Shown here: positions 34,429 through 64,000 of the stretch, one piece after another
Layout of the letters: the number at the start of each line of letters is the position of its first letter
How positions within the stretch are numbered: position 1 is the stretch's first letter
DNA from: Ureaplasma urealyticum serovar 8 str. ATCC 27618
GTDB lineage: Bacteria; Bacillota_I; Bacilli_A; Mycoplasmatales; Mycoplasmoidaceae
DNA: 64,000 nucleotides
Reading direction: 5' to 3'
NCBI RefSeq assembly: GCF_000169535.1
Contig: NZ_AAYN02000002.1
Location: 1-64,000 of the forward strand
The notes under the pieces: model-generated
Databases searched by the model: none
The model's input: only the letters and a program-made list of their open reading frames with translations
Told to the model about the DNA's origin: nothing
Translations under genes and position numbers: made by a program

Positions 34429-35615
34429 ATGAAAATTAAAAAAATAGCTATATTATCTGGAATTTTAACAATAGCTCCTTTGTCGCTTTTATTGTGTAAT
34501 GCTACTACCATCGATAAAAATGATGATATTTTGTAAAATGCAATAAAAAAATCTAGTGAAATTTTAAATAAATTTTTTAAAAATAAAGAACAATTTAAAT
34601 TTTATGAATACATAAAAGATAAAGAAAATAACAAATATATTTATTTACAATTTGAAAAACACTTCTTGATTTATGATTTAAATTCTAAAAATATTATCCA
34701 AATTACAGAATCTTATAATAATAAAGGAATAGTATCAAGATGAACTTATGAAGTAGGAAAAAACATTGAAAATAAATGAAAATCTAGAGAATCATTTGTA
34801 CCTAATTCAGATGAGGATACTCTTTCATCTATACCAAATATTAGTAATTTATTAAAAGAATCATGATGATGAGCTTCTAGAAATAATTATAAAAGAGTAG
34901 GTTACGCAGATAGTGGTTTTTTAATAATAACTTTTTCAAAAGTAGCAGCGGTTCTGAAGTAGTAGGTTTATGTGAATACATAGCATTAGCTAATCTTCTT
35001 TTATATAATGAATTATTTAAATCATCTGGTATTTTTACAGACGAAGAATTTAATAGATATTTTAATATAAATGAAGGTGAAACAGTAGAGGAAAGTTCGC
35101 CAACATTTAAAGACCAATTGGTTAATTATGAAGAAAATTCTTTGGTGTATAAATTATGAGATATAAATTGACGTTGGCCTAATTTAGCTCTCCCAAGATA
35201 TTATGATTATCCCGTTCAAAAATTTTTAGAAAATAAAGATGCAAAAAATAATTATGAAGTGGAATATAAATTAGGTTCTTATTATTGAGAAACTATCAAA
35301 AATATTAATGATAATAATCCAGTTATTGTTAGCACCACAAAAACTATGCATGCATTTGTTGTTTATGGTTATGATGAATCAACTCAAATGTTATTAATTA
35401 ATTGACTTTGAGGTGATTCGAGAGCTATAACACTTGTAAATTATTGAAAGCTAGCTGCTTCTGGTTCTATATTAAAATTATTTTATACCTTAAAACCAAA
35501 GAAAAATATTAAACCAAATTTAAAAAAAGTTTTTAATTATAAAGGACAATACTACGATGGAAATGAAATGACAGAAATCTACAATTCATTACAAAAGGGA
35601 AACATTTACCCATAA
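34429..35615 (+). pseudogene. Broken papain-like cysteine peptidase gene
   Basis: ATG at 34429 after GAGGTAA encodes a signal peptide (MKIKKIAILSGILTIAPLSL) and meets an in-frame TAA at 34534. The same frame then continues openly to about 34925, and the sequence resumes one base out of frame near 34920-34938, around a T6 run. The downstream part has GLCEYIALANLLLYN (nucleophile Cys), TMHAFVVYGYDE (His) and LLINWLWGDS (Asn), the order of staphopain/C39-like papain-fold peptidases. Two independent lesions make a pseudogene likely. A sequencing error or programmed event is the alternative. Confidence 0.65.
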
Positions 35616-44829: not shown

Positions 44830-46222
44830 GTGTTGAATTTAAAACAATATTTAGGCGAAACTAATTTTTATGATAAGAAAGAAAAATTAGAAAAGAAGAA
44901 AATAAAATCATGACTAAAAAGCGTTTGTGCGTTTGCTAATGGTCAAGGTGGCAAATTAATATTTGGTGTAAATGAAAACAATGATATTTTAGGATTAGAA
45001 AATTATTTAAATGATTCTGAATTTATTAGTGAAACTATTAAAACAAAAATTGATAATATTCCAGAATTTGATATTGAAATTAATGAATACGAAAACAAAA
45101 TTATTCTAATACTAACAATCTTTCCAGGAAGAAATCCACCATATTTTCTAGTTGATAATGGTTCAAAAACTCCATATAAAAGAGTTGGTAATCAAAGTGT
45201 AATTGCTTCACGCAATGATTTATTAAATTGATGTTTAAGAAGTCAAAATCGCACCTATGATTCATTAGTTTCGAATAAATTACTAAAAGATGTTAGTTTT
45301 TTAATGTTAAAAAACGAATATCAAAAACATACAGAAAATTTATGAGAAGATAAATTTTTAAAATCCTTTGAATTGATTGATAACAATAATTACTTAACAA
45401 ATGCTGGAGCTTTATTTGCTGATGGATATCAAGTTTATCAATCACGAGTTTTTTTGTACTCGTTGAAATGGAAAGACTAAAACAAACGGTTTAATTGAAG
45501 CATTAGATGATGCAGAATTTGAAGGGAATTTACTATTTCTTTTAAATTCAAGTATAAATTTTATTAAAAGAAATAGTAAAAACATGTGAAGAAAAGGAGT
45601 TTTATATCGTATTCAATATCCTGAATATCCTATAAAAGCAGTGCAAGAAGTAATAGTTAATGCTTTAATTCATCGAAATTATTCAATTATTGGTAGTGAA
45701 GTACATATTGACATGTATGATGATAGATTAGAAGTATATTCTCCTGGTGGTATGTTTGATGGGAATTTTGTCCAAAATATCGACCCTTATAATGTATGAT
45801 CAATTCGCCGTAATCCTATTTTAGCTGATTTATTTGCACGAATGAATTTAATGGAAAGAAGAGGTTCTGGTTTAAAAAATATTTTAGAAATTTATGCATC
45901 TAAAGAAAATTATCGAGAAGATTTAAAACCGGAGTTTCGTTCAACTGAATCTGCTTTCTTTGTTGTTTTAAAAAATTTAAATTATCAAGAGCAAAATATA
46001 TCAAAAAATGAAAATCAAAAAATATCCCCTAGCCAAAGACGTCAAAAAATCATAGAATTTATCCAACAAAATCCAAAAACAACAGCTTATGAATTAACGA
46101 AAGTATTTTTTGTTTCAATTAATACTATTGAACGTGATCTAGCTAAATTAGTACATGATGGATATGTTGAATTTGTGGGATCATCAAAAAATGGTGAATG
46201 AAAAATTAAAACTAATCAATAA
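44830..46222 (+). pseudogene. AlbA_2/ATPase-domain transcriptional regulator, frameshifted in a T7 run
   Basis: GTG 44830 follows AAGGAG. The product starts with an AlbA_2 (divergent AAA_4) domain (VCAFANGQGGKLIFGVNENNDILGL, PYKRVGNQS). The frame is lost in seven T at 45449-45455 and ends at 45478. Removing one T restores SRVFCTRWNGKTKTNG and a long frame with an HATPase_c_4-like part (VNALIHRNYS, RLEVYSPGGMFDG, LMERRGSGLKN) and a C-terminal winged helix (IIEFIQQNPKTTAYELTKV). Such proteins often accompany restriction-modification loci. The tract may be a phase-variable switch, a fixed mutation or a sequencing error. Confidence 0.75.
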
Positions 46223-46260
46223 ATCACGTTGTTAAAAAAATTTCTCTTCTTTAATCTTGT

Positions 46261-46266
46261 TATAAT
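46261..46266 (+). promoter_or_regulatory. -10 box of mnmG
   Basis: TATAAT 32 bases upstream of the mnmG start; no clear -35. Confidence 0.5.
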
Positions 46267-46297
46267 TCTTAGTTAGTAATAGTTTAGGTGGTTAAAC

Positions 46298-48142
46298 GTG
46301 AAAAAATATGATGTAATTGTCATTGGTGCTGGACACGCAGGATTAGAAGCAGCTTTTGCAACTTCTAATCTTAATTTACAAACAGCATTAATTACATTAG
46401 ATGAAAAAGGGATTGGGATGATGCCATGCAATCCTTCAATAGGAGGGCCGGCTAAAGGAATTGTTACGCGTGAAATTGATGCCCTTGGTGGTATTCAAGG
46501 TAAAGCAGCTGATGCTACAACAATGCAAATGAAAATCTTAAATTCATCAAAAGGACCTGGTGTTTGAGCGATTCGTGCACAAATTGATAAAATTGCTTAC
46601 CAACGATGATTTAAGCAGCAAATTAAACAACAAAAAAATTTAGATTTAATCATTGCTGAGGTTAGTGATCTATTAGTAGAAAATAACATTGTTAAAGGTG
46701 TTATTTTAAGTGATCAAAAAATCATCCAAGCTGATTATGTAATTATTACAACAGGAACTTATTTAAAATCAATTACTCATCGTGGTTCGGTTTGTGTTGA
46801 TGAAGGAGCAGATGGTACAAAAAATGCTAAATTTTTAAGTGATGTATTAGTGAAATTAGGATTTGAGTTAATTCGTTTAAAAACAGGGACCCCTGCAAGA
46901 ATTAAAAAAGATTCGATTGATTTTACAAATATGGTTCTTGAACCTGGTACAAATCAAAAAATTGCTTTTAGTCACTATCACCCTGTTTATAAACCTTATG
47001 ACAAACAACTTCCTTGTCATATTATTTATACAAACGAACAAACTCACCAAATTATTCGAGAAAATTTAAATAAATCAGCAATGTATGGGGGTATGATTTC
47101 TGGAATTGGGCCACGTTATTGCCCTTCAATTGAAGATAAAATTGTTAAATTTAGTGAAAAACCGCGCCACCAAATTTTTGTTGAACCAGAATCATATGAA
47201 TTAGATTCAATGTACTTGGGTGGTTTTTCAACTTCAATGCCAATTGATGTTCAAGAAAAAATGATTCGTAGTTTACCTGGATTAGAAGATTGTGAAATCT
47301 TAAAATATGCTTATGCTATTGAATATGATGCTATTGATCCAACCCAACTATATCCTAGTTTAGAATCAAAATTAGTTAATAATTTATTTTTTGCTGGACA
47401 AATTAATGGAACTAGTGGCTATGAAGAAGCAGCGGCCCAAGGATTAATGGCTGCAATTAATGTTAGTCAAAAACATAAAAATAAAGAACCAATTGTTTTA
47501 GGTCGTGACCAAGCTTATATTGGTGTGATGATCGATGATATTGTTACTAAAGGTGTTGTTGAACCATATCGTTTACTAACAAGCCGTGCTGAACATCGTT
47601 TAGCTTTAAGAAATGATAATGCTGATGATCGATTAATGAAAATTGGTTTTGAAATTGGTTTATTAAAACCAGAAGTATATGATCAATACTTAAATAATTT
47701 AAAACAAATTAATGAAGTTTTAAATTGATTAAAAACAACAACTGTAGGACAAATTGATGATTTAAAGTTTACGACTTTAAAGACAAATAGTTACTTAATT
47801 GATTATTTAAAGCGTCCTGAAGTTAAATTAAATGATTTATTAATTTATTGCCCAATAAAAATTGAAGATGAACAAATTATCAATAAGGTACAAATTCAAG
47901 TTAAATTTGAAGGTTATATCAAAAACCAAGAAGAAAACTTAAAACAATTAAAACGGTTAAATAATATTAAACTTCATGGAATTGTTGATTATAAAGAAGT
48001 GCCAAATATTTCTTTAGAAACAATTGATAAATTAAATAAGATTAAACCTCTTGATCTTGAACAGGCAAGTCGGATTAGCGGGGTTAATTTAACAGACATT
48101 GCAATGATTAAATATTATTTAGAAAGAATTAAAAATGACTAG
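46298..48142 (+). CDS. mnmG: tRNA uridine-34 modification enzyme MnmG (GidA)
   Basis: FAD-dependent partner of MnmE in wobble-uridine modification. The 614-residue protein has the N-terminal FAD-binding [70 protein letters not shown] and [24 protein letters not shown] encodes several Trp. The start is GTG 46298, preceded by TAGGTGG. It overlaps rsmG by 8 bases, the classical gidA-gidB pair. Confidence 0.97.
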
Positions 48143-48845
48143 AAAAGATTTTTTTAATGTTTTAACTAGATATTTTCCTTGAGTTGATGAACAAACTTTT
48201 ATAAGTTTTGAAAAATATAAAACAATCATTCAAAAATATAATCAAATTTTTAATTTGACAAGACTTGATAGTGATGATAAGATTTACCAAAATTTCTTTT
48301 TAGATTCGCTTGCACCTTATAAAGAACTAGATTTTTTTACACAAAATACTAATCTTAAATTAATTGATATTGGTTCTGGTTCTGGAATTCCAGGGGTTGT
48401 TTTAAAGATTATTTTTAAAAATTTAAATCTAACATTATTAGAAGCTAATCAAAAACGATGTGAATTTCTTAAAATATTAACTCAAGAATTAGGTTTAAAT
48501 GATGTCTTAATTTGAAATATGCGTGCTGAAGATTTAACACAATCGATGCGTGAATCTTTTGATGTTGCAACTTCAAGAGCTGTTGCATCATTAGATAAAA
48601 TTTTAGAAATTTCAGCCGCATTTGTTAAAGTTAATGGTTATTTAATTCAACCAAAATCAATAAAATTTTATGAAGAAGAACTAAAAGCAAAAAATATTAT
48701 AAAAACTTTGTATTTAGAAAGAATCGCTTTAAAAGATTTTTGAGAAAATGATTATCATCATTTAGTTGGTGTTTATTTAAAAAAACAAATCACTCCACTA
48801 CAATTCCCTCGTCCTTGAAATCTAATTCTTAAAAAACCACTCTAA
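48135..48845 (+). CDS. rsmG: 16S rRNA (guanine-527-N7) methyltransferase RsmG (GidB)
   Basis: Methylates G527 in the 530 loop of 16S rRNA. The 236-residue protein has LIDIGSGSGIPGVVLKI (SAM site), LLEANQKRCEFL and FDVATSRAVASLDKIL, which are RsmG signatures. UGA encodes Trp at five or so positions. It overlaps the end of mnmG by 8 bases. The PQ-loop gene follows after 22 bases with its own ribosome site. Confidence 0.95.
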
Positions 48846-48867
48846 TTATTTATAAAGGAGTTATATT

Positions 48868-49230
48868 ATGAGTTCATTACCAGTTATTATTTTAGTAATT
48901 GGCATTTTTGGGTCTATTTTTCTAGTAATAGGATATATTCCCCAAGTAATTAAAGTTATCAAAACAAAACGAACAGATGGAATTTCATTAACATTTTTAA
49001 TTTCTTTAAACATCGCTTGTTTTCTATTTGTAATATATAGTATATTAGTAATGATTTTTAACAAACATAATGGCATTCCTACTGCTTTACCATTATGTCT
49101 TGCAAACACCATAGTAGGAATTTTAGGTCTAGTTATTTTAATTTATAAAGTTAAAAACATTAAAAAAGCTAAATTATATTTAATGGATGAAAAGACATAT
49201 TATGAAAAATATGTCTTAAATAATTTATAG
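48868..49230 (+). CDS. PQ-loop (SemiSWEET-like) membrane protein, first of second pair
   Basis: A 120-residue protein with the PQ-loop [25 protein letters not shown] and three to four hydrophobic helices, close to the size of SemiSWEET half-transporters. The C-terminus [21 protein letters not shown] resembles that of the first pair. AAAGGAG precedes the ATG. Its stop overlaps the GTG of the next gene. Confidence 0.75.
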
Positions 49231-49643
49231 TGTCTCCAATTAGTATTGAATTAATAATTCAAATAAGTATTGGATTAAGTGCTAGCCTAATTTTATTGTT
49301 TGCTTTCTTACCACAAACACTTTTAACCATTAAAACTAAAAATACTGCTGCATTAACAATTAGTATGTTTATTATTTGTTTTATTGCACGTTTATGTTTT
49401 AGTTTAAGTGCTATTCTAACAATTATCGTTTATATTCATAATCAGGATTATGGTTTATCTTTATACGCGCTTACACTTCCTGTTTTAATATGTCATGGTA
49501 TTAATATGTTATTAAATTTAATTATTGCTTTTATAAAAATCAATAATGTTTATAAAGCCAAAATCCATAAAATGAATGAGAGTGAATATATTATTTTTGC
49601 TTATGCTCAAAAATTAAAGGAAAAAGTATCGATAAAAAAATAA
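49230..49643 (+). CDS. PQ-loop membrane protein, second of second pair
   Basis: A 137-residue membrane protein, signature FAFLPQTLLTIKTKNTAALTISMF, with further helices and the same kind of charged tail (NNVYKAKIHKMNESEY). The start is GTG 49230, which overlaps the upstream TAG by one base (TAGTG), so the two proteins are translationally coupled and probably made in equal amounts. Substrate unknown. Confidence 0.72.
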   Translation: MSPISIELIIQISIGLSASLILLFAFLPQTLLTIKTKNTAALTISMFIICFIARLCFSLSAILTIIVYIHNQDYGLSLYALTLPVLICHGINMLLNLIIAFIKINNVYKAKIHKMNESEYIIFAYAQKLKEKVSIKK

Positions 49644-49654
49644 ATAATTTACAC

Positions 49655-49687
49655 AATAAATTTACATAAATATTTATTTTATTTTTT
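49655..49687 (+). terminator. AT-only terminator after the PQ-loop genes
   Basis: AATAAAT (49655-49661) pairs with ATTTATT (49672-49678), followed by TTATTTTTT. All A-T pairs, so strength is doubtful. Confidence 0.45.
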
Positions 49688-49693
49688 GAAAAA

Positions 49694-49722
49694 TTGTTCT
49701 TTTTTTTTTTTTGCTTTATAAT
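49694..49722 (+). promoter_or_regulatory. Promoter of the MIP-MIB operon with a poly-T spacer
   Basis: -35 TTGTTC (49694-49699) and -10 TATAAT (49717-49722) are separated by exactly 17 bases, of which the first 13 (49700-49712) are all T. Gain or loss of T would change the spacing and hence expression. An 86-base leader precedes the first gene. Confidence 0.7.
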
Positions 49723-49808
49723 TAAAAAACATTCAAGTTGACTATAAATTTGAGTATTTACACTTCATATTCAATGATGCAAAAAGCATTATTAGTTAGG
49801 AAAAATTT

Positions 49809-52328
49809 ATGAAAAAGTTAAAATTAATCACTTTAAGTTTATCGCCTATTCCTATTGTCGCGATCATGGCTACAGCATGTAGTACAACAAAAAAAGAAAA
49901 AGAAGTAGATCATAAACAAGATGAATTAACTACTATAAATAGTAATTTACAATTAGAATATCCACAAAACAAAGATATAGAAACATCAGCAGCAATAAAG
50001 GAAGAAATAAAGCCTTTAAATTTGCCGTCTGGTGTTGTTTTTAGCATTAAAGAAATTAGTCCTAAAGCAGATGATGAAAGTACATTAATAGTTAAATACA
50101 CCCTTAAAAAGGGAAACATAACTAAAGAATTTAAAAAAGAAATTAATGGATTTAAAAAAATTCGTAAAGATCAAAATATCTCTAATCTAAAAGACATGCA
50201 TGATGATTTTAAAACAATTTTTAATAACATTAAATTAAAAGATACGTTCGATTTTAAACTAAAAGGCCTTTTTAACTCAAATTTTGGTGAATACGATAAA
50301 TTATTACCCTCACAAATTATTAACAATTTTGCACAAGGTGTAGAAACTAGAATTAATACTAACCAAGATCGTTTAGGTATTGAAGTTATAGATGTTAGTT
50401 ATCCAAACAGAAATTTTGGTTCTGCTAATCGTGAAGGTAATTTAAAAATGTCACTATTAGTAACTGATAAAAAAACAAAACAAGTTTTCATTAAATCAAT
50501 AATTGCGTATGGTTTTAAAACTAATGCAATGGGTTTAGATGAGAATGGTTCAATTCCAGGTGGTGGTGCTGATCTTGTTAAACCTAAAGTTGATGAAAAT
50601 AATTATTTTAATAAAACTCAATTAGAAAGATATGAAATTGATAATCAAGCTTATTTAAATGGTTTAAAAGGCCAACATATGGGTAAAACTTGACAACAAG
50701 TGCGTCCTGAACTTGGTGATAATGAACAAAAAATTAAAGAATTTGATGAAAAAGCTAAAGGTGTAAGTCAAGATGCTTATGCGTCTGCTGCTTATAAAGG
50801 TTTTACACTCCCAGTGTATGATAAAAATGGTGATTTTAAAGGTTTATCAATTAATGAAAGTAGTTATGGCCAAGCTCGTTCATGAGTTGATACAAGAGGT
50901 CGTGATGAATGAAAAACCACTGGTTTACCACGAACTTTACCAAACGAAAAATATCGTGATGAAGCTTTACAAACATTAGGGATTAGTTCTTTAACTTTAA
51001 AAGATGGAAAAAAAGATACTTGAGATAAGTCTTCAGGAACAACATGAATCTTAGATTATCAAAAAACAAATGATGATAAATATCCTACAAAATGATATTT
51101 TGCAACTAATTTACATGTTGCAGATACTATTACAGACAAAACAACTTCTATTGATTTAATGAAATTAATGGATAGCGTTAAAACTAAAACAACTTTACGT
51201 TTAAGTAATTTAGATGAAAATATTTATCGTTTTGGCCTTGCAAGTAAAAATAATGAATTTTTATTAAATCATGGTCTTAAAAAAATATATGATGGTCGAG
51301 ATTTCTTAAAAACTAAACCTACAGAGTACTTAACAGAACAACAAAAAGAAAAATACAAAGATGCAGGCAGTTTTGTTGATTTTGCAGTTTTTGAATTAGA
51401 TTTTGAACAATTAAAATTACTTAGTGTTTGAAACAATCAACTTAACTCAAATGGTGGTGTAATTACTAAATATGATCATTCTTCTGCACAAGATCTTGCA
51501 AAAATTATTACAAGTGATTATGCAAATCATAGTGATAAACAAATTAAATTCTTACCTAAATCATATTTAAATGATTATTCTAAAATTGATGTTCCTTTAA
51601 AATATAAACAAGAAGACGCTAAAACATGATTTAAAAAATACGATGAATTATTTGCTCTTGGATGACCTAATTCAACTAGAGATGGTTTTTTTGAACGTTA
51701 TGTGGATGATGATCAAACTAAATATCGTACAACAGATAATTTCAGTTTATGAACAAATTCTGATTATCGTTTTTTTGGTAAACTAACAGAGCAAGAAGGT
51801 GGTCAACCTGCTTTCCCAACAGAACGAACTGAACGTGGTAATTACTTATCTTATGCGATTGGTTACCGTAGTTTTATCGATAAACCTGGTGTTTTAGATG
51901 CTTTTATTTCTGCTCCTCATACTGGTAATGATTTATATAAATCTCTTGATGGCAAAAAATATATTAATATGGGTTTGGAATATATGCCTAGACATTATGC
52001 GCCAGCAGGAGGCGCTTCTGGTTCAAGTGTGCGAAACCAAAACAATGAAATTGTAGGAATTTATCATGTAAGTAATGAATTTGCTAGCACCGGGTTAGCA
52101 ACTGCTTTTCGATCTGAAGGTTATGATTATCAAGGATTATATGGAAATTATAATTTACCACAATATGATTTAATTTATGGCGGTGGAAAAGATCAAACCG
52201 AAAAGAAATCATACCGAGAAGCGATGAAGGATATATATCAAAATAACAATATTAAAACAGCATTGTTTCCAAATGGCTTTGACCAATATGATGAAAAGTT
52301 TAAATTTAATAACAATCAAAGTAAATAA
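49809..52328 (+). CDS. mip: Mycoplasma immunoglobulin protease (MIP), copy 1
   Basis: An 839-residue surface lipoprotein (lipobox MATACS). An N-terminal lipoprotein-17-type unit (LNLPSGVVFSIKEI, ending EINGFKKI) precedes the DUF31 trypsin-like domain: His436 in ATNLHVAD, Asp524 in FVDFAVFE and Ser737 in GGASGSS. MIP cleaves IgG heavy chains captured by MIB in other mollicutes; the assignment here is by domain and gene order. About 20 UGA codons encode Trp. It is the first gene of the operon, 22 bases before MIB copy 1. Confidence 0.88.
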
Positions 52329-52834
52329 AGGTTAGGTTTTAAATAATAAAATGAAATTTATTAAACGTAAAACAAAATTATTAACGATTACAATTGGTGC
52401 AGTTGCTGTTAGTTCAATCTTATTAGGAGGAATTTTTTATGGTACAAGTCAAAAAAGTCCCTCAAGTTTTGGTATTGCTTCTATTGATCAAAAAGAAAAT
52501 TTTATTAATAAAGACAATTTAGATTACCAAAAAGCAAGACCATCAATTAAAGATAATAACTTAAAAGAAATTCCCAAACCAAAACCTCAGCCAAAACCTA
52601 AACCACAACCAACGCCATTTCCAGATCCCATCCCAACACCTCCAAAAAAAGAAGAACTAAAAAAACCAGAGATTAAACCAGAAGAACCTAAAAAGCCTGA
52701 AATTAAACCTGAACCAAAACCTCAGCCTATTCCTCAACCAACACCTCCTGTTGAAACTAAACCAAAAGAAGAATTATTACCACCCAGCCCACCACCTCCA
52801 AAAGAAGAACCAAAACCAGAACCAGATCCGCAAC
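52111..52834 (+). repeat. Near-identical MIP-tail/MIB-head repeat, first copy
   Basis: The last part of MIP copy 1 (from 52111) and the first 480 bases of MIB copy 1 are almost identical to 57026-57775. A divergent stretch of about 60-90 bases interrupts it at the MIP-MIB junction. Confidence 0.85.
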
Positions 52835-54699
52835 CACAGCCACAACAAGTTCCAAACAATAGTAATTCACGAATTATAGAAATTAATGGTGTAAGAGTGG
52901 AAGCTGAAGTTGAAGTCCCTCCCCCTCGTGATATTGCTGAATATGATAAACAAAATAATCTGGTTAACCCTAATCCATACATTAATGATAGTGTTGGTAA
53001 AATTAAAAACGTAAAGGTTACCGATGAATTGCGAAAAGCAACAGGTAAATTGGTCCAAGGAAATTTAGGACGTTGAGATTACAAACATTTAATTAATGAT
53101 TTATTAACTCTTAAACCAGAGGAAATAGAAAAATATGTAAAAAACGATAAAAGCGGTTATTATGCAAAAGTTTGATATCGTTTTTCAAGATTATTTGAAT
53201 CTGAAAATGTTGTTAATTTTTTAACTGAACAAGGTAAAAAAGAATATCCTGAAATGAAGTCTAAATTTGTTTCAAAAGACCATAAATATGCATGACTTTA
53301 TCAACATCTAGATTTAACAAAATTTACACAATTATCAAATGAATCAGAAGCTTATTTAAAAGAGGGTTATACTCCTGATCCTGATAATGCATATGTTGAT
53401 AAAGATGGAAAAATTAGTTCTCACGCATATTCACCTGCCAAAGGTTATAATTCGGTAACAAGTCGAATGGAAAATGATAATTGAAATCGGCGTGTTTTTG
53501 GTTATAAAAGTTGATATGGACGTACTCCTGGGAATTTAGTTGAAGGTAATTATCCTGGTTGAAAGAAAACAAATGTAACCCAAGAATTCCATCAATATGG
53601 CGTTAGCGATGGTGATGGAATTACAGTTAATAAATTAACTCGTGAAAAAACTGAAGATGGTCGTTTAAATGAAGGATATGTTGTTGATATTGATGCTGAT
53701 AATCCACAAGGTTATGAAAAAACAAAAAAATTAATTCAAACTTTAAAAGAAAAAAATATCAATATCACAGGGTATAGAATTCATAATATGGGGAAATCAG
53801 ATTCAAGTCAAAAATTTGTTGATATTCTAAAAACATTACCAAATCAATTGCCTTTATTAGAATTATTTTTCTCCGCTGGTTCGCATAATACCTCTTCATT
53901 AATCGCACTGAAGGATAAAAAAATTAAAGAATTAGGTTTATTCACACTAGGAAATTCATTGTTAGATGATTGATCAATTAATCCTAATGCCTTACGAAAT
54001 GTTGAATGAATTAATTCAAACGATTATAATGTTTCATTTAATTATAAACAAGGTGCAGATATCGCTACTCGTATTACTTTTGATACTTTAGCTTTTGATG
54101 AAAGTGATTATAATGACAATGCATCTGACATTAAATCAAAATTAAAACAAATTAATGACGGTTTACGAATGGTTTATTGAACGAGAAATAATGAACCGAT
54201 TTTTCAAGGTAGTTTTGGGCCTGGTTTAGATCCTGATCACAAAGAATCAGGTAACAGTTATCCACAAGGCTTAGATTTTAGTCGTGTCCCTCAAATTCGC
54301 TCATTACGAGGTTTAATATTTAAAGATGAACAAAAAACATCAAATAATAAAGATCGTAAATTACGAAGAATTAATTTTTACAATAACAGCACAACTTATA
54401 AAATGTCTATCGAAGACTTAAATGAAGCCGGATTTAACGAACATATTGTAAGTGGTGAACCTGGTGAAAAAAGTAAAATTACTTTTAGCAATGGTTCTGG
54501 TACAACTAAAATCCAAATTGATGGTGATCAAGAATTGTCAGCAAATGGAATTAGTAACTTATCAGCAATGTTTAATTTTGCTGAAAGTTTACAACGGACA
54601 ATTGTTGTAAATAATACCAACTCAGCACTTGCAAATCAATTAAGAAATGCGGGATATAGTATTGAATCAACAACTGATGCCGGACTAATAGATATTTAA
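52351..54699 (+). CDS. mib: Mycoplasma immunoglobulin-binding protein (MIB), copy 1
   Basis: A 782-residue protein with an N-terminal membrane anchor (about 8-30), no lipobox, a Pro/Lys/Glu-rich spacer (about 71-168) made of KPEIKP, PKPQP and PPPP units, and a large C-terminal domain with YAWLYQHLDLTKF, GYRIHNMGKSDSS and FFSAGSHNTSSL. Known MIB binds antibody Fab/Fv and hands it to MIP. The proline-rich stretch probably projects the binding domain off the membrane. UGA encodes Trp about ten times. Confidence 0.82.
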
Positions 54700-54729
54700 T
54701 CTTTATTTAAAAATTTTGGATAAAAATAT

Positions 54730-57234
54730 ATGAAAAAAAATAAGTTAATTACTCTCGCTTTAATATTACCAATTACAATCTTAACTCCTATTATTATTGC
54801 TTCATGTACAAATAAAAGTAAAGTTAAAAAATCATCATCTTTAGATAATATTGCTTCAAATTTAAAATTAGAGTATTCTAATAATAAAGCTAATGCTCAA
54901 GCATCAAGTGTACAAAAAGATGAAATTAAAAAACCTCTAAATTTACCAAGTGATGTCATTTTTAGTATTAAAGATCTTTGTGTTAATCCTAAAGATCAAA
55001 GTGTATTAATTGTTAAATACACTTTAAAAAGGGGAAATGAAATTCAAGAGTATACTTATAAAATCAAAGGTTTTAAATCTATTTTTGAAAAAGATAAAAT
55101 CGTTAATGATTTAAGTCAAGCAAATGAAGATTTTAGAAAAATTGTTGATAATATTAGGTTAAAAGATACATTTGATTTTAAACTAGTAGCTTTTCCTAAT
55201 CAAAATTATGACCAATTATTACCATCACAAATTTATAAAAATTATTATCAAGGTATTGAAATTCAACAACACAAATATCAAAATGAATTAGATATTAAAA
55301 TTATTAATTTTTTATATCCTGATGGTGATTTTGGTTCGGCAAATAAAAATGGTACTTTAAAATTATCATTAATGTTAACTGATAAAAAAAATAATCAAGT
55401 TTACTATAAACTTTTAGAGGTTTCTGGCTTTAAATCTAATCCCTATGGTGTTGATGAAAATGGAACAATTCCTGGAATTGGTACAGAACGTTTAAAACCT
55501 AAAAATCAAGACGATTATTTTTCAAAAACTCAATTGCAACGTTATGAAATTGATAATGAAGGATATCTTCAAATTTTAAAACGCCAAAATAATGATAAAA
55601 ATTGAAAAGAGTTGCGCCCTGATTTAAATGCAACTGTTAGTGATATTAAACATTTTGATGAAAAAGCAAAAAACGTGGGTCAAGATTCTTATGAATCTGC
55701 TGCTTATAAAGGTTTTACATTACCTGTTTATGAAAGTGATGGCAAAATCAGTGGTTTAGCATTAGCAGGTAAAGATACACCAAAAGGGCCGTCATGAGTT
55801 GACGCAATTGGACGTAACCAATGACAAATTGGTGGTTTACCACGAACATTGCCAAATGAAAAATATCGACAAGAAGCAATGCAAACATTTAGTTTAGGAA
55901 TTTTAAATAACGATCCGCACAAGAACAATACTTATAATAAAACTGCAGGTACAACATGAATTTTAGATTATCAAAAAACAAGTGATAATAAATATCCTAC
56001 AAAATGATATTTTGCTACAAATTTACATGTTGCAGATGCGATAAATGAAAATACTTCATCGATTAATTTAATGCGATTAATGGATTCTGCACAAATTAAA
56101 ACTACTTTTAGATTAAGTAATTTAGATGAGAATATTTATAATTTTGGTTTTCGAAGTAAAGAACATGGCAAAAATCTTTTAAACCATGGACTTAAAAAAA
56201 TTTTTGATGGACGTGATTTTTTAAAAACAAAACCGGCTGAATATTTGATTAATTCACAAAAAGAAAAATATAAAGATGTTGGTAATTTTACAGATTTTGC
56301 TGTTTTTGAATTAGATTTTGAAAAATTAGAATTAGTTAATGTTTGAAAAAATTTTTTAGGTGAAAATAATGGGTTAGTAACAAAATATAATAATTACAAT
56401 CCTCAAGAGTTGGCTAAAGTCATTACAAGTAATTATGCTAATAATGAAAATAACCAGATTAAATTCTTATCTAAATCATATTTAAGTGATTATTCTAAAA
56501 TTGATGTTCCTTTAAAATATAGACAAGAAGACGCTAAAACATGATTTAAAAAATACGATGAATTATTTGCATTAGGTTGACCTAATTCAACAGAAGATTT
56601 CTTCTTTAAAGCTTATGTTGATGATGACCAATTAAAATACCGTACTCGCGATAATTTTAGTTTATGAACAAATTCTGATTACCGATTTTTTAATAATTTA
56701 ACTCAACAAGAAGGTGGACAGCCTGCTTTTCCGCCAGAACGTACTGAACGAGGTAATTATTTATCTTATGCAATTGGATTTCGTAGTTTTATTCAAAAAC
56801 CTGGAATAGTTGACGCATTTATTGCAGTTCCCCAAATTGGGAATAATTTATACACATCTAGTGATAATAAAAAATATATTAATATGGGACTAGAGTATTT
56901 ACCCAAACATTTTGCACCAGCAGGTGGTGCTTCTGGAACAAGTGTACGCAATCAAAAAAATGAATTGGTTGCTATCTATCATGCTAAATATGATTCATCA
57001 AAAACAGGTCTAGCTGCTGCTTTTCGATCTGAAGGTTATGATTATCAAGGATTATATGGAAATTATAATTTACCACAATATGATTTAATTTATGGCGGTG
57101 GAAAAGATCAAACCGAAAAGAAATCATACCGAGAAGCGATGAAGGATATATATCAAAATAACAATATTAAAACAGCATTATTTCCTGATGGATTCGATAA
57201 GATTCCTGATGGATTCAAATTTAATAATAATTAA
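54730..57234 (+). CDS. mip: Mycoplasma immunoglobulin protease (MIP), copy 2
   Basis: An 834-residue lipoprotein (lipobox IIASCTN) closely related to copy 1, with the same N-terminal unit (LNLPSDVIFSIKDL) and an intact triad: His433 in ATNLHVAD, Asp522 in FTDFAVFE, Ser735 in GGASGTS. It lies 30 bases after MIB copy 1. The last 150 bases or so are identical to copy 1, whereas the rest is more diverged, a sign of local gene conversion. Confidence 0.87.
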
Positions 57235-57775
57235 AAATAAATTATCTTTAATTGAAAGGATTGTTGGTATATGAAATTTATTAAACGTAAAACAAAATTA
57301 TTAACGATTACAATTGGTGCAGTTGCTGTTAGTTCAATCTTATTAGGAGGAATTTTTTATGGTACAAGTCAAAAAAGTCCCTCAAGTTTTGGTATTGCTT
57401 CTGTTGATCAAAAAGAAAATTTTATTAATAAAGACAATTTAGATTACCAAAAAGCAAGACCATCAATTAAAGATAATAACTTAAAAGAAATTCCCAAACC
57501 AAAACCTCAGCCAAAACCAGAACCACAACCAACACCATTTCCAGATCCCATCCCAACACCTCCAAAAAAAGAAGAGTTAAAAAAACCAGAGATTAAACCA
57601 GAAGAGCTTAAAAAGCCTGAAATTAAACCAGAACCAATTCCTAAACCAAAACCTCAGCCTATTCCTCAACCAACACCTCCTGTTGAAACTAAACCAAAAG
57701 AAGAATTATTACCACCAAGCCCACCACCTCCAAAAGAAGAACCAAAACCAGAACCAGATCCACAACCACAACCAC
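57026..57775 (+). repeat. Near-identical MIP-tail/MIB-head repeat, second copy
   Basis: Second copy of the repeat at 52111-52834, about 4.9 kb downstream in direct orientation; deletion or duplication of one MIB-MIP unit by recombination is possible. Confidence 0.85.
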
Positions 57776-59646
57776 AACAAATTCCTAACCAAAGTACTGT
57801 TAGAAAAATTGAATTGAATGGTGTTTTAGTGGACGCTGAAGTTGAAGTTCCACCCCCTCGTCAAACTTTTAAATATGATCAGGATAATGGATTATCAAAT
57901 CTTAATCCCTATACAAATATAAGTGTTGGGAAAATTAAAAAAGTTTTTGTAACAGATGAGTTGCGGCACAAATCAGCAGATTTAGTGCGCGGGAATTTAA
58001 AGCGTGGCGATTATCAAAGTTTAGTTAAAGATTTATTAGATCCAAATATAAAACCAGAGGAAATTGATAGTTATATCGCAATGGTTGATAAAAGTGGATA
58101 TCACGCTAAATTATGAAGTAAATTTAAAAAACTATTTGATACAGACAATGTTGTTAATTTTCTAAATGAACAAGGTAAAAAAGAATATCCTAATATGAAA
58201 ACAAAGTTTGTTTCTAATGCGCATAAGTATGCTTGGTTATATGCTCATTTAGATTTTTCAAAATTCACTAAACTTTCAGCTAATTCTGAAAAGTATTTAC
58301 AAGAAGGCTTAACGCCTGATCCAGATAATTCATATGTTAATGAAAACGGCGAATTAGATTCATATGCTTATTCACCTGCTAAAGAATATAATACAGTAAC
58401 AAGCCGTTTAGCAAATGATAATGCTAATCGAAGGGTATTTGGGTATAACGAATGATACAATCGTAGCCCAAATGGTTTAGCTAATGGTGATTATCCTGGT
58501 TGAAATAAATCAGATGCAACAGCTGAGTTCAAACAGTATGGCATTAAAGATGGTGATGGTATTAAAGTTTATAAACTAGAGCGCCAAAAACCACAAGAAG
58601 GTAAATTAAATACTGGATATATTGTTGATATTGATGCTGATAATCCTGATGGATACCAAAAAACAAAAGAATTAATTCAAAAATTAAATAATCAAAACAA
58701 AAAAATTACAGGATATCGAATTCGTAACATGGGGAAATCAGATTCAGGACAAAAGTTCTCTGATATTCTAAAAGCCTTACCAAATGAATTGCCATTGCTT
58801 GAATTGTTCTTTTCTGCTGGTTCACATAATACGTCAGCACTTTCTGCTCTTGAAACTAAACATATTAAAGAACTTGGGTTGTATACATTAGGTAATTCAT
58901 TATTAGATGAATGATCAATTAATCCAAATGCGCTTCGAAAAGTAGAATGAATTAATTCTAATGATTATAATGTTTCGTCAGAATATAAACAAGGATCAGA
59001 TATTGCTACACGAATTACTTTTGATACTCTTTCTTTTGATAAAAATGATTTCAATGATAATGCAAATGATCTTCGAACAAAATTAAAGCGTATTAATGAT
59101 GGATTACGAATGGTTTATTGAACAAGAAATAATGAACCATTCTTTCAAGGTGGATTTGGTCCAGGATTAGATCCTGATCATAAAGAGGTGGGAAATAGTT
59201 ATCCACAAGGCTTAGATTTTAGTCGTGTCCCTCAAATTCGCTCATTACGGGGCTTAATATTTAAAGACGAACAAAAAGCTTCAAACAATCGTGAACGTAA
59301 ATTAAGAAGAGTTAATTTCTTTAATGATAAAGAAAATTATGAAATGTCAATTAATGATTTAAATGAAGCTGGTTTTAGTGAACATATTGTGACTAATGAA
59401 CCAATGCCTCCTAAAAGTAAAATTACTTTTAGTAATGGTAATGCTACAAAACGTATTTACATTAAAGGTAATGGTAGTCTAACTGCAAGTGGTATTCAAA
59501 ATTTAGCTACATTATTTAATCTAGCAGAAAGTTTAGATTCTAAATCTGTTGTTGTTGATTCTAATAATTCAGAATTAAAGTCACAATTAGAAGGTTTAGG
59601 ATATAAAGTAAGTGATGCTTCTGACGCTAACTATATTGATATTTAA
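57271..59646 (+). CDS. mib: Mycoplasma immunoglobulin-binding protein (MIB), copy 2
   Basis: A 791-residue paralogue of MIB copy 1. The first 160 residues are almost identical, apart from an Ile/Val change and a 9-residue longer proline-rich spacer (PIPKPKPQPIP). The C-terminal binding domain is diverged but keeps FFSAGSHNTSAL and GYRIRNMGKSDSG. Shared anchor with different binding domain suggests different antibody isotype or allotype preference, which is inference. It is 36 bases after MIP copy 2. Confidence 0.82.
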
Positions 59647-59660
59647 TAGAAGGAATTATT

Positions 59661-62264
59661 ATGAAAATTAAAAAACTTATTGCAAGCGTTAGTATAATCA
59701 CACCAATTGTGTTTGTTTCAGCTTTAGCAGCGTCTTGTGTTAATAATAAACATGAAGATAAAAATATTGTGCATAATAGTAGTGACCATGGTAATAATAA
59801 AAAAAATAATTTTACTAATGATTTAAATCAAAATTTAACAACCCACGAATTTAAATCAAATTTAATAAGTACTTCCCAATTAGATAATATAGCCAAATTA
59901 ATTAATTTTACTTATGAAAATAAAGCTAATACTTATTTAAAAAATATACTTATTAATCAATTAAAACATTCACCTATTCAAAATCAGGATTTTAAACTAG
60001 AAATTATAGGTTTATATCCTAAACAAAATTCCTTGCAGGATTTAATTATTTATTATAAGTTAACTAACCAAAAAACAAAGGAGATTAAAGGTTATTATTT
60101 TGAATTAAATGGTTTTAAAAAACCAGATAACACCATTTTTTCAAATCAATTAACGCCTGAGCTAAAAAAAATTATTGATACTATTCAATTCAAAAAAACT
60201 TTTGATCTCGCAATTAATAATCAACAAGTATTAAATTATGAAAATGTTTTACCTTCACAAATCAAAAATCAATTATTAATGGGTTTAAAAGTTATTCAAA
60301 AGGAGTATACAGACAAAATTAAACTAAGTGTACTTGATGTTTTGTTCATTAACGAAGGCGGACAAATTAACGCTAATAAGTTGGGAGCTTTTTCTTTATT
60401 ATTAGAGGTTTTGGATCTTAAAAGTAAAAAAACTTTCCAAATTCTTATTCCTGTTGATAAATTTAAAACTAATCCTTATGGTGCTGATGAATATGATTTA
60501 TTGCCAACGCAAGTTAATAACGGATTTGCACCAACTAGCTTAGCTCAAATTAATCAATACAATAATGCTGATCAACAAACACGTTATTTATATGATAATG
60601 AAAATTATTTAAAATCATTAAAAGCATATCAAAGAAATGTAAATTGATACCAAATACGCCAAGATTTAATTAATAATAAACAAAAAATTAATGAATTTGA
60701 TCAAAAAGCACCACAAGTTTTTCAAGATAGTTATGAATCTGCTGCTCGTAAAGGTTTTACTTTACCAGTATATGATGAAGATGGTAAATACCAAGGTTTA
60801 TCATTTAACGAAACTGAAATTGGAAAAAGTGTTTCGTGAGTTGATGCAATTGGAAAAGATCAATGGAAAATAAATGGTTTGGCTAGAACTTTGCCTAATG
60901 ATATGTATAAGCAAATTGCTTTACAAACATTTGGCATTCAAATTCAAACACCAAATGGTAAACCACGCGAATCTGATATAGTAGCTGGAACAATGTGAAT
61001 TATGGATTATCAAAAAAGAAATGATAATAAGTATCCTACTAAATGGTATTTTGGCACAAATTTACATGTTGCAGAAGCATTAAAATCAACAACAACAGTT
61101 TTTGGTATTAATAAGATAATGCCAACAGTTAAGACTAAAACTACTTTGGGTTTAGCGAACGCTGATGATAATATTTATCGTTTTAGTTTAGTTAGTAAAG
61201 ATAATCAACCAAATATGGATAAACCTATTAGTAATGGTATTAAAACAATCTATGATGGTCGTGACTTCTTAAAATTAAATCCTAGTGACTTATTAACATC
61301 AAAATTGAAAAATAAATACCATAACCTACAAGAATTTGTTGATTTTGCTGTTTTTGAAATTGATTTTGAAAAAATAAAACTCGGCTCTGTAACGAAAAAT
61401 TTTTATAGTGGATCAGATTGAAGTGTTGATAAATATAATAATTTAGATCCAAGTGAATTAGCTAAATTAATCACAAACGATTATGCACAAAAACCAAATG
61501 AACAAATAAAATTTTTATCAAAATCTTATTTAAATGATTATGCACGTATTAATGTACCTTTGGATTCAAAATACAATCAGGCTTTTGACACAAATAAATA
61601 TGATGAATTATATGCTGTAGGTTGGCCAAGCTCTGCTTCTGATTATTTCTTAGACCCAATTAAAGATCAGAAACAATTTGAATCAAGACGTGAAAGTTAT
61701 AGTTTATGAATTAATTCTAATTATCAATTTTATAATAAATTAAATCATAATCCTCCTTTGTTTCCTCTTACACAAATAAATCGTGGTGATTTCTTGTCAT
61801 ATAATATTGGTTATCGTAGTTTTACTAATAAACCTGGATTGCTTGATGCTTTTATTGCTAGTCCTATTACTGGTAAAACCATACATAAATCAACTGATAA
61901 TCAAAATTATATTGGGTTTGGTTTAAATTATTTACCGATGCATTATTCTCCAATTGGGGGTTCATCAGGGACAAGTCTACGTAATCAAAAAAATGAATTA
62001 GTGGGAATTTGGCATGTTGGTAATGGCTTTGCCCAAACAGGTTTGGCTGTTGCTTTTCGATCTGAAGGCTATGATTATCATGGATTATATGGTAGTTATA
62101 ACTTACCACAATATGATTTGATTTATGGTGGTGGAAAAGATCAAAAAACTTCCTATCGCCAAGCAATGATGGCGTTATATAAAAATAAAAATATTGCAAC
62201 CGCTTTATTCCCTAATGGTTTTGGTGAAGATCAAATCCCTAGTGCTTTTAAATTTAAAAATTAA
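59661..62264 (+). CDS. mip: Mycoplasma immunoglobulin protease (MIP), copy 3
   Basis: The most divergent MIP, 867 residues, lipobox AAASCVN followed by an Asn/His-rich linker. Triad: His469 in GTNLHVAE, Asp561 in FVDFAVFE, Ser769 in GGSSGTS. The DUF31 core and the C-terminal SEGYDYHGLYG...YDLIYGGGKDQ match copies 1 and 2. It begins 14 bases after MIB copy 2 and has no downstream MIB partner; the next gene is the membrane protein. UGA and UGG are both used for Trp here, more UGG than in copies 1 and 2. Confidence 0.85.
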
Positions 62265-62293
62265 TTAACTTTTATATTGAATTAGAAAATTAT

Positions 62294-63784
62294 ATGATGA
62301 ATACAAAAACATTTACTTCCGTTAATAGAGTAATTTATGATGATAACTATTCGCTAAAGCAACAACAAAAAAGTAGCTTTATCAATCAATTTTTAAAAGG
62401 ATTGTTATCTGCTATTACTTTATTATTCTTTATTTTACTTTTAATCTTTGCTGAAAACACGTTGTTTGGTTTAGGTTTTGGTGATGAGAATAAATCAATG
62501 ATGATTTCAAAATCGCTAAATGCTTTTTTTGATTTACACAGCCCTAAATATTTACAACTTAACTTTTTAATTGTATTTCGCTTTTTTATTTTAAGTTTTA
62601 CACTGTTTTATGCCTTAATCAAAAATTTCACAAATCTTTATTGGCATCGAGTAACCATTAAAAAATACTTACCATGATTCGTTTTATATTTAGTAATTGC
62701 AACAATTAGTTTCTTACTATTTTTTACTTTTTTTAGTGTTTGACCAAAAGAAGTTTTTAATTTAGTATTTTTACTATTAGTGTTATTTTTATTAAATTTA
62801 AGTTATGAAATATTTAATTATTTTATTTCTAAAAAAACTAACCCTTTATTATACGGTAATTATAAAAATTTAATTATTACCATGGTTTTTCAAGCGTTAT
62901 TACTATTATTTGTAATAATTACCCCCTTTGTATGAATTAATACAGGTAAAAGTCCTAACTTTTTATTTGTTGATAATCGTTTCTACACACGCATAGTTGA
63001 TATCTTCACTGTTCAATCAGGTAAAAATTTTATTATTTTAATTGCTTTCTTCTTCTTTTTAATTACATTTATTGTTTTAGCAAATACTAATTTTTTCGCT
63101 TTAGTAATTAATAAACGTTACGATCGTAATTATGTTAAGAATAATTTATGATTTATTTTACTTTTATTTAGTGCTATATTTATTTGATTATTAAGAGTTT
63201 TTGCATATAAGCACGAAAATGAAAATCTACCGATTGGTAACAACCATTTATTATGAGTTTATATTTTACAAAGTTTTTTTGCAATAATCATATTAATACT
63301 ATATATGGTATTCACTTTAAAAAAACGCTTAAGCGCAAAGAGTAGTTTAAATACTTTATTAAATTTAGTAGTCACTCAAACAATTCTAAGTTTAAGCTTG
63401 TTTTTAGTAACATTATTTAATTCTAAGAGTGTGGTTTCTTTAATTAATGTTTTTATTACAATTACTGTACAAATGAGTGTATTTGGAATCTACATATTTC
63501 AAAATAAAAACATTTCAACTAAATTATTGGTGCTATTAAAGGTTATTATGATTTTAATTATTTTAACCGCAGCAATTGTAGGTTTTGATTATTTATTAAC
63601 ATCTGATCATCATAATAACTATTTATTCTCAAACATTCAACCGAAAATGAATTTAGTACAAATCATGTTGTTATTAAATTTTAGTTTGAGTTTTACTTTA
63701 ATTAGTTATTTAACAATTAAATTTACAATGGTAATTTTTAAAATCAATAAGCTAAATAAGGAGTTAAACAATGAAAAAAAATAG
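62294..63784 (+). CDS. Polytopic membrane protein, candidate X0 subunit of a type 3 F1-like ATPase
   Basis: A 496-residue protein of about 12 hydrophobic helices with a short cytoplasmic N-terminus. It has no sequence signature I can name. The call rests on context: in other mollicutes MIB-MIP genes lie beside a cluster with F1-like alpha, beta, gamma and epsilon genes and unique membrane subunits (F1-like-X0). ATG 62294 or the adjacent ATG 62297 are equally possible. It is 29 bases after MIP copy 3 and overlaps the next gene by 14 bases. The F1-like genes themselves would lie beyond the window. Confidence 0.6.
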
Positions 63785-64000
63785 ATCTAATCTGACACCT
63801 ACAACAAATTATTTTGATGTATTTAATACTTATAAAGAAAAAAAAGCAAGTGTTGATTTAATTACATATGAAGAATTAATGGCATCAGTTTTATTTGATA
63901 ATAAATTAGGTTTTGAATCAGAGGTTTATTTAGATTTTGTTAAAAAATTTACATTAGCTTTTGAAAAAAAACTAGATATTTGATTTGAAAATTTTATTAT
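63771..64000 (+). CDS. Partial gene, probable further F1-like-X0 cluster member
   Basis: Begins ATG 63771 after AAGGAGTTAAACA and runs off the window at 64000 (UGA at 63981 read as Trp). The visible 76 residues are hydrophilic (NYFDVFNTYKEKKASVDLITYEELMASVLF) with no membrane segment or known motif. The 14-base overlap with the membrane protein gene implies coupling. Function not recognised. Confidence 0.55.

Follow-up and report, generated by a model that had tools for sequence, protein, structure and literature searches.

We analysed a 64,000-base stretch of the genome of Ureaplasma urealyticum serovar 8 strain ATCC 27618 (hereafter, the window), in which a run of 13 thymines (T13) stands in front of a block of 12 close-packed genes that begins at 49809 and extends beyond the window to 70739. 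The block consists of three MIP genes (immunoglobulin-specific serine endopeptidase family), two MIB genes (immunoglobulin-blocking protein family) and seven genes of an F1-like X0 ATPase cluster, with gaps of at most 36 nucleotides (nt) throughout; the gap that comes after them measures 156 nt. On the forward strand, MIP 1 (49809–52328; NF045842, 759.5 bits against a cut-off of 305), MIB 1 (52351–54699; TIGR04526, 758.6 bits against a cut-off of 150), MIP 2 (54730–57234; NF045842, 782 bits), MIB 2 (57271–59646; TIGR04526, 756.6 bits) and MIP 3 (59661–62264; NF045842, 738.9 bits) are followed by an ATPase-cluster gene (62294–63784; NF045937) and by the next gene of that cluster (63771–64286, in the window to 64000); the rest of the cluster (gamma, epsilon, MSC_0620, alpha and beta) lies outside the window. 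Six of the seven ATPase-cluster genes score above the cut-off of a cluster-specific NCBIfam model, and the gene at 63771–64286 has no family match. MIP and MIB families that stand side by side above curated cut-offs, with the ATPase cluster adjoining, have the arrangement of an MIB–MIP system, and the block is a predicted antibody capture-and-cleavage system. Across the genome (881,828 bases in two contigs: C1, of 8,099 bases, and C2, which contains the window and has the same coordinates), no further MIP or MIB gene exceeds its cut-off, a 20-bit fragment at 718241 falling short. MIP 1 shares 64% identity with the closest U. parvum protein and 95% with another database entry. The NCBIfam models bear out the MIP and MIB assignments that a first-pass annotation had made from the letters of the window alone; the unit that it described was understated in extent, as the block reaches 70739 and includes the seven-gene ATPase cluster. 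We infer that the 12 genes are carried on a single transcript.

The region upstream of MIP 1 reads, on the forward strand, TTGTTC (49694–49699), T13 (49700–49712), GCTT (49713–49716) and TATAAT (49717–49722). TTGTTC and TATAAT, the candidate −35 and −10 hexamers, are separated by 17 bases, most of which are taken up by T13, and 86 bases lie between TATAAT and the ATG of MIP 1 at 49809. The tract position, the spacing, the TATAAT and the distance to the first MIP had all been described before, and each proved exact when the window was read again. TATAAT, 4 nt 3′ of the tract, is the sole TANAAT in the 165-base intergenic region that separates MIP 1 from a PQ-loop/SemiSWEET-like gene on the same strand (49230–49643), the last of an mnmG-rsmG run. 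Farther on, 30 nt past T13, there is a second box, TATAAA at 49743, which is weak. Transcription would start near 49729, giving a predicted mRNA leader at 49729–49808 on the forward strand. An 8-pair hairpin at 49773–49793 lies in this predicted leader, just 5′ of a ribosome-binding-like AGGA (49798–49801). A scan of 49400–50000 with Rfam gave no match, and nothing was found when the leader sequence was scanned against viral contigs.

Chance AT-richness does not explain T13. In the window, which has a G+C content of 26%, T13 is the sole A/T run of at least 10 bases, and the next longest runs, three of 9 bases and thirteen of 8, fall below the numbers expected from window-trained Markov models of order 1–5 (about 10–19 and 28–44, respectively). 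Throughout the 881,828 bases there is no A/T run of 10, 11, 12 or 14 bases, against a Markov expectation of 80–188 runs of length 10–12; 15 runs of 15–17 bases were nevertheless observed, where 0.3–3.8 are expected at a length of at least 15. T13 is one of 16 long runs genome-wide, which wholly explain the genomic counts of homopolymer 12-mers (81) and 10-mers (113). These runs comprise 15 distinct tracts (one of 13 bases, which is T13, two of 15, six of 16 and six of 17) and one duplicate on C1. Because runs of 10–12 and 14 bases are absent whereas there are 15 of 15–17 bases, long A/T runs are generally removed from this genome, yet kept at a few places.

Those places are, with few exceptions, in front of surface genes. 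Thirteen of the 14 other distinct tracts stand 46–125 bases (239 for mba) before a gene whose product has a signal or lipoprotein N-terminus, and all 13 of these genes score as secreted, compared with 6 of 39 control genes in the window outside the MIP–MIB block. The secretion test took in these 13 genes, counting the nearer of two surface genes for the tract at 621084, which lies between them; it left out the tract at C2:849068, which lacks a nearby gene and lies 3′ of nusG, behind an inverted repeat. The coding strand carries T's in 8 of the 13 tract-linked genes and A's in 5. Families represented among ten of them are MBA and MBA paralogues, DUF1410 proteins, an MnuA-family membrane nuclease and a putative cysteine peptidase, and the mba conserved-domain gene is included. 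Tract lengths vary between paralogues, a comparison made within one genome of the species: two related DUF1410-type genes (593991 and 640642) have T17 and T15 in front, and three related MBA-type genes (800741, 802202 and 803614) have T17, T17 and T15. No MutS_V match was found in the genome, while the control matched in 11 of 14 genomes, and replication slippage would for this reason be the natural cause of the length differences. Taken together, the run distribution, the surface-gene neighbours, the paralogue length differences and the lack of a MutS match make T13 likely to be a contingency tract. The idea of a homopolymer contingency locus, first raised for T13 alone, is thus strengthened by the genome-wide pattern, and the 16 runs of 13–17 bases form a candidate list of contingency promoters.

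We propose, with a probability of roughly 0.62, that T13 is a slippage-prone promoter switch that turns the whole predicted antibody-cleaving block of 12 genes on and off. In this model, replication slippage would add or remove T's, and the changes would go uncorrected without MutS. With 13 T's, the −35 and −10 elements are 17 bases apart, for which we predict an ON promoter; with 15–17 T's, the lengths of all the other long tracts, the spacing would become 19–21 bases, which is predicted to leave the promoter OFF or weak. Every MIP and MIB gene above the cut-off lies behind the tract, as does the ATPase cluster. In M. mycoides, MIB–MIP function is reported to require the ATPase (PMC12994834); a single switch would thus cover the complete system. 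Promoter use, slippage at this locus, the ON state and the effect on antibody cleavage are what we infer from the sequence. A broader proposal, put forward more tentatively, at somewhat less than even odds, is that ureaplasmas have a genus-wide set of poly-T contingency promoters by which they switch their cell surface, and that in U. urealyticum all MIP, MIB and ATPase genes (12 genes) depend on one T-tract, with T13 as its ON length, kept apart from the 15–17 T's of all the other tracts. In titles, opening parts of abstracts and passages of mostly freely available work, we found nothing on poly-T control of MIB–MIP or of ureaplasma promoters.

The closest precedent is found in the vlp genes, in which an A-tract sits between the −35 and −10 elements. 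Changes in the length of this tract by slippage are described as switching the transcription of surface lipoprotein genes in M. hyorhinis (PMC10502178), and the parallel with vlp that had been drawn for T13 is a real one. As in vlp, a long homopolymer is present in the candidate promoter of a surface lipoprotein gene: MIP 1 carries a lipoprotein signal, and the tract is longer than expected by chance and maintained. A place between −35 and −10 elements is matched in part: T13 and a TATAAT at spacing 17 are there, but the TTGTTC on the other side agrees with TTGACA at 3 of 6 positions. The two systems differ in that the coding strand carries T here and A there, and in that one tract serves a 12-gene system here, compared with one tract per antigen gene in vlp. 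By analogy, the T13 promoter is a candidate vlp-type homopolymer-spacer promoter. A published hint of the same design comes from the ATPase-cluster promoter of M. hyopneumoniae, in which an adenine run is described between −10 and −35 and likened by the authors to slippage control (PMC11213901); that run fronts an ATPase cluster only, unlinked to MIB–MIP, whereas T13 fronts MIP, MIB and ATPase genes together. In M. gallisepticum vlhA, a (GAA)n repeat some 40 nt 5′ of the start is reported to be active at one length (PMC6258824), but this repeat is a trinucleotide and lies outside the core promoter. Surface phase variation of Ureaplasma mba and UU172 is attributed to DNA inversion at short repeats (PMC3511179, PMC3047005), whereas T13 is proposed to act by tract length; an earlier suggestion for UU172 was an AT9 tract (PMC3047005, citing Rocha and Blanchard).

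Several observations weigh against the proposed switch, beginning with the promoter itself. The −35 consensus is TTGACA, to which TTGTTC matches at 3 of 6 positions, under the 4-of-6 threshold of our promoter scan; of the promoter described by the first-pass annotation, the spacing and the TATAAT stand and the −35 hexamer is poor. The consensus promoter scan of 45000–64000 showed no excess over shuffles (112 compared with a mean of 127), and TATAAT was not enriched in 45 gene-upstream gaps of the genome, defined by mechanical ATG-started reading frames (22 compared with 32 in shuffles). Consensus scans for promoters are powerless in this genome. Of 20,000 trials with a shuffled-flank model, 6.0% placed TATAAT 0–12 nt past the tract, and 0.16% did so together with TTG at a spacing of 16–18, a value for one locus that is uncorrected for 15 tracts and two orientations. 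Both hexamers are weaker evidence than the tract itself. T13 is also the only tract of length 13 in the genome, and its length comes from a draft assembly that may be off by one.

Comparison with relatives adds further points of the same kind. A/T runs of more than 8 bases are absent from all 13 MIB/MIP upstream regions taken from M. primatum and three other ureaplasma genomes, and runs of at least 10 from all 18 MIP-bearing, partly overlapping loci of other genomes. A 461-base query against 59 relatives returned just short AT-rich matches. Conservation of the tract, sought as phylogenetic support, accordingly failed, the MIP loci of other species being without it. Tracts as such do occur in other ureaplasmas, U. 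diversum having six lipoprotein paralogues with T14–T16 located 103–104 bases from the ATG, a further case of paralogous promoters with tracts of unequal length. There, TANAAT lies 18–20 nt past the tract end in 12 of 23 tracts, compared with 4 nt at T13, and an oriented GGAACA box precedes the T-tract by 20–26 nt in 17 of 23; given these distances, the −35 position would fall within or downstream of the U. diversum tracts. The combination of GGAACA and TANAAT looks like a shared promoter design, in which GGAACA may be bound by a protein, its phase relative to the core shifting with tract length. In ureaplasma genome G001, 3 of 8 tracts are followed by TATAAT at a distance of 23–24 nt. No other tract of our genome is followed on its T strand by an exact TATAAT at 12 nt or less; the tract at 119016 comes nearest, with TAAAAT 8 nt past it. 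With a length of 13 rather than 15–17 and a TANAAT distance of 4 nt rather than 18–20 nt, T13 may fall outside the class of the other ureaplasma tracts. Counts from these relatives also go against a simple picture: of 25 tracts (8 from G001 and 17 from U. diversum), 13 are followed on the T strand, at most 400 nt away, by a gene whose product starts with a signal or hydrophobic segment, 2 are inside reading frames and several are at contig ends. Six further U. diversum stretches entered the sequence counts only (for example, n = 23), not this gene-neighbourhood count.

These distances bear most directly on the strongest alternative, that the tract is a variable rheostat acting through DNA shape or as an UP-like element beside the promoter rather than as an on/off spacer. 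The model is H. pylori sabA, in which a promoter-proximal T-tract, commonly of T13–T17, is reported to vary by slippage, and T-tracts adjoining −35 elements to yield graded promoter output (PMC4081817). The clearest ureaplasma tract promoters fit it, those of U. diversum and G001 with their TANAAT and TATAAT well beyond the tract, so that the sabA tract resembles the other ureaplasma tracts; at our locus, the weak TATAAA box at 49743 could have the matching position. The sabA tract is, however, beside the core promoter, adjacent to or upstream of −35, whereas the sole intergenic TANAAT 4 nt after T13 places our tract inside the candidate core promoter, in its spacer. We regard a rheostat as improbable, although less so than the other alternatives.

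Two further explanations are unlikely, to about the same degree. The first is that T13 is a fixed, stiff T-tract spacer of a constitutive promoter, with no switch. Its length departs from the 15–17 bases of all the other runs, as would be expected if selection holds the best spacing, and the MIP loci of relatives do without a tract; but the paralogous tracts vary in length, and with no runs of 10–12 bases elsewhere and no MutS found, T13 is likely to slip. Since a stable T13 is improbable in such a genome, we favour a spacer switch caught at the spacing-17 length over a fixed spacer. The second is that T13 has little effect because the block is transcribed chiefly from internal promoters or by transcripts that run on from the mnmG-rsmG-SemiSWEET genes. 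The same-strand genes before the block stop 165 bases short of it, neither folding nor the terminator scan gave a terminator-like site in that gap, and in M. feriruminatoris every MIB–MIP pair is reported to have its own mapped promoter (PMC11213901), which counts against a single switch. Given these paired promoters and the lack of a predicted upstream terminator, the block could be fed at any tract length. Read-through is nevertheless opposed by a 165-base gap in which the region's sole TANAAT stands directly after the tract, and internal promoters by gaps of 14–36 nt in the block, which leave scant intergenic room. We reject as very improbable a role for T13 as the U-tract of an intrinsic terminator for the upstream genes, because, although other T runs directly follow inverted repeats by eye and may double as terminators (C2:408136, 644172 and 849068), no stable G+C-bearing hairpin precedes T13 (z = −0.42 and +0.67 compared with shuffles) and the 5 terminator-like sites that the scan returned do not include it.

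Some other tract-linked and neighbouring loci merit description. At C2:800741–803628, three tandem MBA-type genes have A-tracts 46–49 bases 5′ of their ATG, with TATAAT on the gene strand 34–37 nt after the tract and near the ATG, and leaderless transcripts are possible. Contig C1 duplicates part of the mba locus at C2:454648–458097, and in both copies the same T16 separates the mba conserved-domain gene from a KPGSGETT-repeat frame. The genome gives matches to MBA N-terminal models; its mba region, on C1 and C2 alike, contains the 25-base mba recombinase site published in PMC3511179. The same source reports a small serovar 8 contig that repeats part of the mba locus, and U. urealyticum serovar genomes of 0.84–0.95 Mb (PMC3511179). 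A putative cysteine peptidase gene (NF045837) at C2:137087–138241 has T16 located 108 bases upstream, and a second one lies in the window at 34941–35561. M. gallisepticum CysP is cited as antibody-degrading (PMC12994834), and these two genes may encode equivalents of it. A frame at C2:72373–75777, 1.6 kb beyond the ATPase cluster, encodes a lipoprotein-like product of 1,134 amino acids with a C-terminal MnuA-type nuclease domain.

If T13 is the slippage switch proposed here, the implications concern both the organism and its detection. Immunoglobulin A (IgA) protease activity has been reported in ureaplasmas, yet a 19-strain genome comparison is described as finding no gene for it (PMC3511179). 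MIP is a candidate for this missing gene, and whether MIP is detected could depend on the state of the tract. Variable immunoglobulin cleavage between isolates would then be explained, and a one-amplicon test would be possible. Ureaplasmas are known mainly for inversion switches; the run pattern, with no runs of 10–12 bases and the long ones almost only before surface genes, provides a list of loci for transcriptional phase variation. Among these, the target of the proposed switch is unusually large and medically relevant: one slippage event could shed or regain a whole antibody-degrading system in a human ureaplasma.
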